Assembly (NCBI GenBank): GCA_017941355.1
Contig: JAGAWN010000149.1
Coordinates: 1-44,107, forward strand
Reading direction: 5' to 3'
Length of the DNA stretch: 44,107 nt
DNA from: Ruminiclostridium sp.
GTDB taxonomy: Bacteria > Bacillota > Clostridia > Oscillospirales > Ruminococcaceae
The notes below the pieces were generated by a model. The model searched no databases, was not told the DNA's origin, and saw only the letters and a list, made by a program, of their open reading frames with translations. Positions 18,519 through 20,898 of the stretch are shown piece by piece (position 1 is the stretch's first letter; every line of letters starts with the position of its first letter). The position numbers and the translations under genes are program-made.

Positions 18519-19757
18519 TCAGGAAATGAATCCCGAAACCGTCATAAACAGATTCAGCAGATAGACAAGCAGGAATATCAGGCTTATACCGCCCAGCACA
18601 TACATCATTCGCGGGTTACCGCTGTGTTCGAGGGCTGCATAGTACACGTCGGGAGGCTCGTCCTTGTACCGTTCACGCAAAGCGAGTATCTTGCTTACAG
18701 ACCAGCGCATATACAGGTAATCGTTGAACAGCAGAAGCAGTATCCTTACGGCGATCAGAATATAAGAAGTCACATTCGCAACGCCGAGCAGCGGCAGTTC
18801 AGATGTCCCTCCGCCTGTGCCGAAGAAAATTATCTGTCTGATAAGCGAGGGGACGGTAAGTACAAAAGTCATCAGTGTAAGTACCACCGCCGGTCCGGTC
18901 ATTCTCCTGTAAAAATGGTATAACGGCATAAAGAACCATGCCGAGAGATTGAGCGAGATCACCTTGCCGCTGTTCGCCATGTTCAGGAAGAGCGCAAAGA
19001 ACCGCGGTGTGCTGATATTGTTCTCACCGAGGAAGTGAACAAGCTCGTCCTGCTTAACTCCGCATACGGTCATTTCCTCACCGCTGTCCTGACTGCGGAT
19101 CGGGTGATGATGTATCATTTCGGAGAAATTGTCGAAAGCCATTTCTTTCAGCGGGATATCGTCTCCCTGCGCATTAACGGCAACTTTAGGCTTCGGCGGC
19201 GTATGCTCCGCTTCCCAGTCATAACCGGTGCCGTGCTTGTCCGCGTTCGGGCAGACCGGCTCCGCTTCCCAGCAGGAGCGGTGAACGGGAGTTCCGCAGA
19301 CCGGACAATACGCCTTGTCCTCGCCGTTGTCAAGGTCTTTGCCGCAGCGGTCACAAACCGGTCTTGCGCTTATCGTGCGGTTTCCGCCGGTACCGGTGAA
19401 ATAAGGGCGCGGCGTATGCTCGTCGGAATACGGGCATTTATGTGTCATATTATAGCAAAGTCTGTGCATCGCGGTTCCGCAGTCCGGGCAATATACTTTC
19501 TCGTCGTCCTCGGTGAACGGTTTTCCGCAGATCTCGCAGCCTGTACCGTCCTCAAAATGACGCTTCATGCGAACCGGGGCTCCCTCTCCCTGCTGCTCCT
19601 GCGCGGCGTAACGGAAATGATTTGCGCTGTTCGGACACTCTCCCCTGACATCAAAGCAGTCCTTGTGCATAGGCATTCCGCAGTCCGGACAGAATATCCG
19701 GATATCCTCATTCGTGAAGATATCCCCGCATATCACACATCTGTCGTTTTTGTCCAT
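18519..19757 (-). CDS. triple Prok-RING-like zinc-finger membrane protein (DUF2628-like C-terminus)
   Basis: 412 aa from ATG 19757 (AAAGGA six nt upstream; ATG 19772 overlaps that site). Three repeated Cys/His modules occupy about residues 5-45, 75-112 and 135-170, each with CxxCG...YCPxCGxxxHxxC...CP. They look like the prokaryotic RING-finger family, and each should bind two zinc ions. A linker follows, then about three to four membrane helices (about 280-412) with FFMPLYHFYRRM, like DUF2628 proteins. The zinc modules are likely cytoplasmic. Function unknown; protein-protein interaction or envelope regulation is possible. First gene of the operon leading to the GT-C-like protein. Confidence 0.8.
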   Translation of the reverse strand: MDKNDRCVICGDIFTNEDIRIFCPDCGMPMHKDCFDVRGECPNSANHFRYAAQEQQGEGAPVRMKRHFEDGTGCEICGKPFTEDDEKVYCPDCGTAMHRLCYNMTHKCPYSDEHTPRPYFTGTGGNRTISARPVCDRCGKDLDNGEDKAYCPVCGTPVHRSCWEAEPVCPNADKHGTGYDWEAEHTPPKPKVAVNAQGDDIPLKEMAFDNFSEMIHHHPIRSQDSGEEMTVCGVKQDELVHFLGENNISTPRFFALFLNMANSGKVISLNLSAWFFMPLYHFYRRMTGPAVVLTLMTFVLTVPSLIRQIIFFGTGGGTSELPLLGVANVTSYILIAVRILLLLFNDYLYMRWSVSKILALRERYKDEPPDVYYAALEHSGNPRMMYVLGGISLIFLLVYLLNLFMTVSGFIS

Positions 19758-19801
19758 TTCAGTTCCTTTCATATAACCGTGATTTGAACATTATTAATGA
19801 T

Positions 19802-19907: not shown

Positions 19908-20621
19908 TTATGATACATTGACCTGTATCTTCATTGTACTGTCATCGACAGAAGCGGTTATTGTCGCGGAACCTTTAGCCTTTGCCGTTATCTTTCCTGT
20001 TGCGGAGACTTTGGCAACCGAGGTTTTGGAGCTTTTCCACATAACGTTGTCGTCGGTAGAAGCGGAAAGAAGCGTTCCGAGCTGAATTGTATCGCCTTTC
20101 TTCATTTCCAGCGTGAAGCTTGTGATCTTTACGTCGGAAGCAGCATCGGCGGAAGGGAATGTTGCTTTTATCGAAGCTTTACCCTCATCTGTTGAATATC
20201 TCTCTATTCTTATGTAATAAGTACCCTTGCTTACACTGTATTTAACTGTTCCCGCAGCTTTTTTAAGTGTGTCTGCCCAGAGCAATTCCAGTCTTTGTTT
20301 ATCACTTGTTCCATATTTATCTCCCGTTGTTACCAATACACTGTTAAAAGGCACTACTTTTCCGCTTGAATCATAGACACGCAGTATTGTTCTGTTTCTT
20401 TCAAAAGAATAATTGATCTTCAGAGTTCCGGATTCAGATACTTTTATTTTATAATCAATAGGGCTGTTGCTTTCCGACAGCGTTTTGGAGACCCATTCAC
20501 CGCTGTTAATAGATTTTGCAGTCTTTGCAATGCTTTCTTCCGCCGAAGCGCTCACCGCAAAAACCGTCATTGCCGATACTGCCATAACGAGTGACAGAAC
20601 GATACTTAAAAGCTTTTTCAT
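19908..20621 (-). CDS. secreted protein with PPC-like and Big2 (Ig-like) domains
   Basis: 237 aa. ATG 20621 begins a clear signal peptide, MKKLLSIVLSLVMAVSAM and on to ASA-E, with cleavage near residue 26; an AAAGGAAG ribosome site lies upstream. Residues about 40-160 form a beta-sandwich like pre-peptidase C-terminal (PPC) domains (GTLKINYSF, VKYSVSKGTYYIRIERY). Residues about 165-237 are a bacterial Ig-like group 2 domain (MWKSSKTSVAKVSATGKITAKAKGSATIT). No catalytic domain or anchor is seen, so it may be an adhesive or binding protein. Its transcript has an unusually long structured leader with a terminator just before the gene. Confidence 0.85.
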   Translation of the reverse strand: MKKLLSIVLSLVMAVSAMTVFAVSASAEESIAKTAKSINSGEWVSKTLSESNSPIDYKIKVSESGTLKINYSFERNRTILRVYDSSGKVVPFNSVLVTTGDKYGTSDKQRLELLWADTLKKAAGTVKYSVSKGTYYIRIERYSTDEGKASIKATFPSADAASDVKITSFTLEMKKGDTIQLGTLLSASTDDNVMWKSSKTSVAKVSATGKITAKAKGSATITASVDDSTMKIQVNVS

Positions 20622-20667
20622 GATAGAATACTTCCTTTCTGCGGTGCATTTATTATTGCGCGCAACC

Positions 20668-20696
20668 AAAAAGTGCGCAGCAATGAAGCCGCGCAC
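20668..20696 (-). terminator. intrinsic terminator inside the leader (attenuator)
   Basis: Minus strand: GTGCGCGGC (20688-20696) pairs with GCTGCGCAC (20673-20681), 9 bp with one G-U, loop TTCATT, then five T (20668-20672). It lies 47 nt before the ATG of the gene it precedes, which is the layout of a regulated attenuator rather than an end-of-gene terminator. Confidence 0.7.
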
Positions 20697-20865
20697 CGAA
20701 AAATGCAGTCTCATTGCTGCGACACAATATCATTTTCAAAAACCAACATAGCACTGGAAATTGAAATACTGCACTTTTGCCTCTGTAAAAGTGCTAAGTT
20801 GGTTTTGAAAATCAATAATATGACAATGCCCGAAGGCACTGCGTTAAAATGATATTATGTCGCAG
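20668..20865 (-). ncRNA. candidate structured cis-regulatory leader RNA (riboswitch-like)
   Basis: Read on the minus strand from the predicted transcription start. P1 is 20 bp: 20846-20865 with 20717-20736, one G-U. Inside P1 is a hairpin, CAGTGCC/GGCATTG (20835-20841 with 20824-20830), closed by a C(UUCG)G tetraloop, then a long helix P3 (about 20790-20812 with 20746-20738 and flanking bases). A smaller hairpin, GCACTTTT/AAAAGTGC (20771-20794), competes with part of P3. After P1, CGCAGCAATGA (20711-20721) can pair perfectly with TCATTGCTGCG (20676-20686), which would break the terminator. The same CGCAG is also needed for P1. P1 and the antiterminator are therefore mutually exclusive. No known riboswitch class was recognised. 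Confidence 0.55.
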
Positions 20866-20869
20866 TAAT

Positions 20870-20898
20870 ATATTATCATAAACCGCAGAAGATTTCAA
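20870..20898 (-). promoter_or_regulatory. promoter of the leader and secreted Big2-like gene
   Basis: Minus strand: -35 TTGAAA (20893-20898), 17-nt spacer, -10 TAATAT (20870-20875). The predicted start (about 20863) is at the outer end of the P1 helix. Confidence 0.6.

Follow-up and report, generated by a model that had tools for sequence, protein, structure and literature searches.

A leader in front of a Big_2 gene is one of a large family of candidate RNA switches in gut Clostridia that is apparently undescribed

We analyzed a 44,107-nt stretch of DNA from Ruminiclostridium sp. (contig JAGAWN010000149.1), referred to here as the window. Read on the minus strand from position 20898 to 20622, one locus in the window carries a -35 box, an extended -10 element, five nucleotides, a 197-nt structured leader with a terminal T-tract and the start of a gene (Table 1). 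A first-pass annotation of these letters had proposed a riboswitch-like leader controlling a secreted PPC/Big2 protein. The Big_2 part of that assignment holds for the downstream gene, but there is no PPC match at E 0.01. By eye, the next gene downstream (18519-19772, minus strand) contains repeated zinc-ribbon-like cysteine motifs, and zinc-ribbon genes are also found behind some other leaders.

Table 1. Features of the leader locus in the window, with the loci of two-copy arrays found elsewhere in the family
Feature	Location	Strand	Basis
-35 box TTGAAA	20893..20898	-	sequence
Extended -10 TGA-TAATAT, 5 nt upstream of leader	20870..20878	-	sequence
P1 5' strand, whose first bases are the predicted site of transcription start	20846..20864	-	complementarity, P1 swap test
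Local hairpin with C(UUCG)G loop, not family-wide	20823..20843	-	predicted fold
Sensor hairpin S, 5' arm	20787..20794	-	complementarity with 20771-20778, S5:X swap test
X, 3' arm of S and complement of Y	20768..20778 (S part 20771-20778)	-	complementarity, X:Y swap test
P1 3' strand	20718..20736	-	complementarity, predicted fold
Antiterminator 5' strand; overlaps outer 4 nt of P1	20711..20721	-	complementarity, AT5:T3 swap test
Y, linker strand that pairs with X	20699..20709	-	complementarity, swap tests, shared-base count
Terminator 5' arm	20688..20696	-	complementarity, predicted fold
Antiterminator 3' strand; overlaps terminator 3' arm	20676-20686	-	complementarity
Terminator 3' arm	20673..20681	-	complementarity, predicted fold
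T-tract of intrinsic terminator	20668..20672	-	sequence
Controlled gene, 237-aa protein with signal-like N-terminus and Big_2 domain	19908..20621	-	Pfam match (Big_2 E 2.1e-10), N-terminus by sequence
Two-copy tandem arrays	L188, L160, L190, L147, L140, L153, L194, L298, L294, L296, L103, L107, L279, L318, L295, L149		

The annotation had described three helices at this locus, P1, an antiterminator and a terminator, and all three are present where it placed them. The arms of P1 are 92% complementary over 24 nt (20713-20736 with 20846-20869), those of the antiterminator 100% over 11 nt and those of the terminator 89% over 9 nt, after which five T follow on the minus strand. A further pairing, between X and Y, is 91% complementary in the window and is also a feature of the family. 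The leader as a whole (20668-20864, minus strand) has a predicted folding energy of -77.5 kcal/mol, compared to -44.9 ± 3.7 kcal/mol for 200 shuffled sequences (z -8.8, none of the 200 as good). Two elements that had been noted inside P1, the long helix and the hairpin with the C(UUCG)G loop, both appear in this predicted fold. As a general element, however, the UUCG loop has to be given up: among the matches listed, the interior of the leader differs in other copies.

A plain DNA search with the window leader as the query gave matches in at least 32 of 99 genomes, its own included, mostly over the 3' strand of P1 and the terminator. This count is a lower bound, at most seven candidates having been scored per genome. 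Nearly all of the retrieved copies have the same order of parts (among the matches listed). From 59 copies, we built a covariance model (R1) in which P1 and the terminator were the only pairs supplied; eight of 67 leaders were left out of its seed alignment (A1). At E <= 0.001, and with 9 or 10 candidates scored per genome, R1 had hits in 20 of the 40 genus genomes, 34 of 297 in a sample of the family, 99 of 295 in a sample of the order and 79 of 291 in a sample of the class. In a sample of the phylum (n = 299, some class members included), the only genome matched was that of the window, so this sample serves also as a negative control for the model.

The window's own genome has eight copies by R1. 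Six genomes picked as copy-rich, with 150 candidates scored, gave 27, 30, 23, 14, 13 and 10 copies, the highest number, 30, being that of genome G885. A pattern scan of the named genome collection returned at least 120 loci, and R1 confirmed 117 of those listed, of which 116 are from class Clostridia and one is unclassified. Judged by eye from their titles, the confirmed loci listed come mostly from metagenome-assembled genomes of the ruminant or rabbit gut. The three loci without R1 confirmation among the matches listed are from Tepidimonas, Kordia and Sulfurovum. Going by its title, locus L236 comes from Pseudoflavonifractor sp. MSJ-30, a candidate for a cultured carrier. Once a leader that had been wrongly assigned (L007) and six weak shadows on the antisense strand were taken out, 299 copies that were distinct by exact ends only merged into 291 distinct copies, or 288 without near-identical ones.

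Copies are also found on predicted viral DNA. In IMG/VR, 19 of 23 predicted viral contigs with the pattern (L238-L260) carry a confirmed copy, and an unannotated phage record from human faeces (MT835845.1, L362) is 73% identical to one viral-contig leader over 92% of its length. The viral-contig leaders often precede small genes of unknown function; when nine of the downstream proteins were searched against PHROG and anti-phage collections, there was one strong match, to phrog_29396 (unknown function), and the others were weak. With one leader as the query, no plasmid copies were found.

The order of the unit is constant, with an extended -10 promoter followed by P1, hairpin S, the 3' strand of P1, a linker, the intrinsic terminator T and usually a start codon. 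The promoter that had been recognized next to P1 (TTGAAA-17-TAATAT) stops 5 nt short of it, and exactly this gap separates the -10 element from P1 in 253 of 285 copies, compared to 24% in shuffles. The extended TG is present in 264 of the 285 (6% in shuffles), a -10 element with at least 5/6 matches in 242 (11% in shuffles) and a -35 element with at least 4/6 matches in 203. On the downstream side, 224 of 280 copies have a same-strand start codon with a ribosome site no more than 150 nt away, as opposed to 33 of 276 for an upstream-antisense control; the remaining 56 of 280 have no start codon by the rule used. Leaders have a median length of 162 nt, and from terminator to start codon the median distance is 27.5 nt. 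There are 17 tandem arrays, one with four copies (L146) and 16 with two (Table 1). Among the 35 array members that could be measured, the extended TG combined with a 5- or 6-nt gap is found in 32, and a -10 element with at least 5/6 matches in 25.

Genes behind the leaders are varied. We scanned 140 of the 241 distinct predicted downstream proteins (146 taken at random, six of them dropped by hand; a few ORFs overlap or are doubtful) and found matches to 81 Pfam families in total, the commonest being LRR_5 (BspA-type repeats, 27), followed by Big_2 (6), PASTA (5), fn3 (4) and double zinc ribbons (4). The family is thus not tied to PPC/Big2 genes, as had been supposed from the window. Among 218 distinct downstream proteins, 139 look exported or membrane-anchored when a rough rule is applied to their N-termini. 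Behind the leaders of G885 lie genes for many secreted proteins that are related to one another and for several small proteins (at L327 and L338-L341) that resemble regulators of the AbrB/SpoVT type with a zinc-ribbon tail.

Support for the individual helices comes from a swap-partner duplex test, in which the duplex energy of a copy's own strands is compared with that of strands swapped between copies. This test could be applied to 123 of 206 leader sequences (118 distinct loci), the other 83 having failed the motif anchors. A copy's own strands pair better for P1 (z -25.7), S5:X (-18.3), X:Y (-14.6), AT5:T3 (-12.0) and T5:T3 (-6.0), with none of 2000 permutations as good, whereas the unproposed pairings S5:Y (+0.8) and P5:Y (-1.1) served as controls and gave no signal in the same 123 leaders. 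In a set clustered to 75 leaders, in which P1, S5:X, X:Y and the upper antiterminator were covered, z was -22.9 for P1, -14.7 for S5:X and -13.3 for X:Y, and three controls were null; the plain T5:T3 and lower antiterminator pairings were covered in the set of 123 only. The upper antiterminator against the terminator loop, two strands with no other evident reason to pair, gave z of about -8.3 to -9.0 in the clustered set.

Column counts in A1 (59 copies) agree, with 96.6% of cells paired and 11 pairs changed on both sides. Cells changed on both sides number 57, compared to 16.8 after shuffling, and the covariation score is 0.217, compared to 0.168 for shuffled alignments and at most 0.086 for slid structures. 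The number of further pair types is unexceptional in A1, being reached by 72 of 500 shuffles. The lower X:Y pairs (GCTC:GAGC) are paired in 84% of cases. Within G885, the sequences of P1 and of the terminator are very different between copies, and by eye the arms are still complementary. In 29 of the 30 G885 leaders (one was skipped), own partners are on average better than swapped ones, with z of -5.8 for X:Y and -5.4 for the antiterminator, which favours action in cis; yet the own partner ranks first in no more than 5 of 29 copies for X:Y and 4 of 29 for the antiterminator, so that some pairing between copies may occur. At the level of sequence, then, five helices covary, namely P1, S, X:Y, the antiterminator and the terminator, and the control pairings do not. 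The first-pass annotation had pointed to a covariance-model search of related genomes, and this search recovered a family with compensatory changes in P1, the antiterminator and the terminator. Its proposal that the strands of these three helices are mutually exclusive is supported as well, each helix covarying.

Several bases of the leader take part in more than one of these helices. In 119 of 123 leaders, at least three linker bases are common to X:Y and the antiterminator, and the two pairings therefore compete. Likewise, X takes part in both S and X:Y, and the terminator 3' arm in both the terminator and the antiterminator. Given the shared linker bases, X:Y would go together with the terminator (off) and S with the antiterminator (on). 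No more than 4 nt of the P1 3' strand are used by the antiterminator in the window, so that P1 need not be the switching helix and can largely persist in both states.

On these mutually exclusive pairings, and on the fixed place of the unit between promoter and gene throughout the family, we base the following model. Transcription would start at the edge of P1, which would fold as a scaffold around the sensor hairpin S. Two choices would then be made. X may pair with the 5' arm of S or with the linker strand Y, in which case X:Y would cross P1 as a pseudoknot; the 3' arm of the terminator may pair with its 5' counterpart or with the antiterminator strand, a segment reaching from the outer end of P1 into the linker. 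S together with the antiterminator would give read-through, and X:Y together with the terminator would stop transcription at the T-tract of the leader. The switch that the first-pass annotation had envisaged thus keeps its own promoter, its exclusive helices and its covariation, but X:Y and the sensor hairpin had been overlooked.

In 101 copies, nearest-neighbour estimates, which leave tertiary contacts aside, put the terminator 4.3 ± 3.4 kcal/mol ahead of the antiterminator, and the terminator fold is the more stable in 87% of these copies. The combination of X:Y and T is favoured over that of S and the antiterminator by 7.6 ± 4.8 kcal/mol, as a rough sum. These energies suggest a default-off state with regulated read-through, in which RNA polymerase would pass into the gene when a cellular signal either holds S or unbalances X:Y. 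A cis-acting transcription-attenuation leader that is off by default, with X:Y occupying the antiterminator strand, is in our judgment probably the correct explanation.

None of this corresponds to a class that we could recognize, as the annotation had also stated. No Rfam match was obtained at the gathering threshold in the window with the 4227 families of Rfam 15. Across 13 loci the only matches were five tRNAs outside the leaders, and 20 further loci gave none; matches below threshold are to unrelated families. The c-di-GMP riboswitches (RF01051, RF01786) occur in several copies per genome, before surface or secreted genes. The leader family shares both of these properties, but the leaders tested have no Rfam match. 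In addition, 26 of 79 leader-positive genomes of the class sample have no GGDEF match, including G885 (30 leaders), G865 (14) and G637 (8); we therefore rejected c-di-GMP as the signal. Unlike in the class sample, GGDEF is present in all 40 genomes of the genus (G000-G039), where leader-richer genomes tend to have more GGDEF proteins, possibly an effect of genome size or clade. With amino-acid attenuators and uORF leaders, the family has terminator-antiterminator alternatives in common, but unlike them it has no conserved leader peptide.

Pseudoknotted riboswitches with intrinsic-terminator expression platforms include the preQ1 and crcB (fluoride) types. The family resembles these terminator-type riboswitches in having a 5' leader, alternative helices that share strands, an intrinsic terminator before the gene and a possible pseudoknot, and it differs in having no Rfam match, two coupled strand switches, a promoter that is part of the unit and varied genes, many of them for surface proteins. 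The crcB motif is treated in PMC2864571. Candidates of the terminator type in PMC11109978, PMC8632094, PMC8040213 and PMC2864571 are similar in being structured leaders with terminators that were found computationally; in the passages of these sources that were searched, this unit is not described. We found no published description of the unit in these passages or in the titles and abstract openings of the literature searched, though an unnamed entry among the 3161 candidates of PMC8040213 might correspond to it. The window leader is a member of a large candidate RNA-switch family of gut Clostridia, found before surface-protein and other accessory genes and apparently undescribed. Sequence and covariation give it general traits of a riboswitch, a conserved structured leader before genes and mutually exclusive helices in the expression platform. 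It would work like a terminator-type riboswitch or an attenuator with putative ligand binding, and "riboswitch" in the strict, ligand-bound sense is a candidate label.

As the driver of such a leader, a small molecule or a host protein fits, and a leader peptide or c-di-GMP fits poorly. A small molecule could bind the P1/X:Y pseudoknot (off) or the S-containing fold (on), making the leader an orphan riboswitch; we consider this a serious candidate that falls just short of an even chance. Alternative pairings that feed an intrinsic terminator, the occurrence of as many as 30 copies in one genome in front of varied genes and the 17 tandem arrays, one of four copies, are all in its favour, as is the scarcity of leaders with a ribosome site and a short ORF. 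Against it, strict conservation is seen by eye at few of the unpaired bases, with no obvious strongly conserved unpaired core, which is weak for an aptamer, and the genes behind the leaders are too diverse to point to one metabolite. More tentatively, the same attenuation leader might be controlled by a host RNA-binding protein that acts as an antiterminator or terminator factor. The scattered genes and the copies on predicted viral contigs fit a factor encoded by the host, and in many copies the sequence of P1 is conserved beyond the needs of pairing (A1 column counts). The wide differences in P1 sequence between G885 copies are awkward for sequence-specific binding, however, and LoaP is disfavoured because none of the 40 genus genomes exceeds the NF033641 cut-off of 125 bits. 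NusG-like proteins scoring 104-117 bits against that cut-off are present in four of the 40, one of which (G016) has no leaders.

Other explanations dispense with sensing or with regulation altogether. Because the estimated energies favour the terminator by about 4 kcal/mol, and X:Y together with T by 7.6 kcal/mol, a near-constitutive terminator is possible, and the leader could then be a constitutive attenuator or the source of a short trans-acting RNA. Its predicted terminated product is about 160-200 nt and well folded, and cross-pairing between copies is energetically possible. We consider this reading unlikely, given that the antiterminator and X:Y covary although a plain terminator needs neither, and that strands on average pair better with partners from their own copy. 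Attenuation by ribosomes on a leader peptide would account for a terminator/antiterminator geometry like that of classical attenuators, but a Shine-Dalgarno sequence with an ORF of at least five codons occurs in only 6 of 291 leaders; with no conserved translated short ORF, this mechanism was rejected as extremely improbable. Many copies per genome and an inverted-repeat structure might also suggest a dispersed repeat, MITE or REP-like, that merely resembles a leader. The annotation had named many copies as a sign of a MITE, and many there are; yet they lie between a promoter at a fixed position and a start codon on the same strand, far more often than in the control, and they are strongly divergent with compensatory changes. 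On grounds of gene position, strand and covariation we rejected the MITE/REP reading, which we regard as very unlikely.

The leader thus seems to be a regulatory RNA that is repeated many times over in rumen and gut Clostridia, bacteria for which metagenome-assembled genomes are the main source of knowledge. Its presence marks out genes for LRR, Ig-like and lipoprotein surface proteins as well as accessory genes, and offers a handle on surface-protein choice in bacteria that are largely uncultured. For a riboswitch-like element, the fixed unit of promoter plus leader, the tandem arrays of up to four and the presence on predicted viral contigs are unusual. There is a fair chance, though less than an even one, that the family is a new class of pseudoknot riboswitch that senses a signalling compound widespread in gut Clostridia and sets which surface or secreted proteins are displayed, through tens of copies in some genomes and through copies on phages. 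The five-helix model makes sharp predictions that are directly testable in vitro.

A run of TTTT(T)CG follows the sensor hairpin, in the X region, in 45 of 123 leaders (for example L020 and L021), compared to 3% of shuffled sequences, and hints at a pause site for RNA polymerase.
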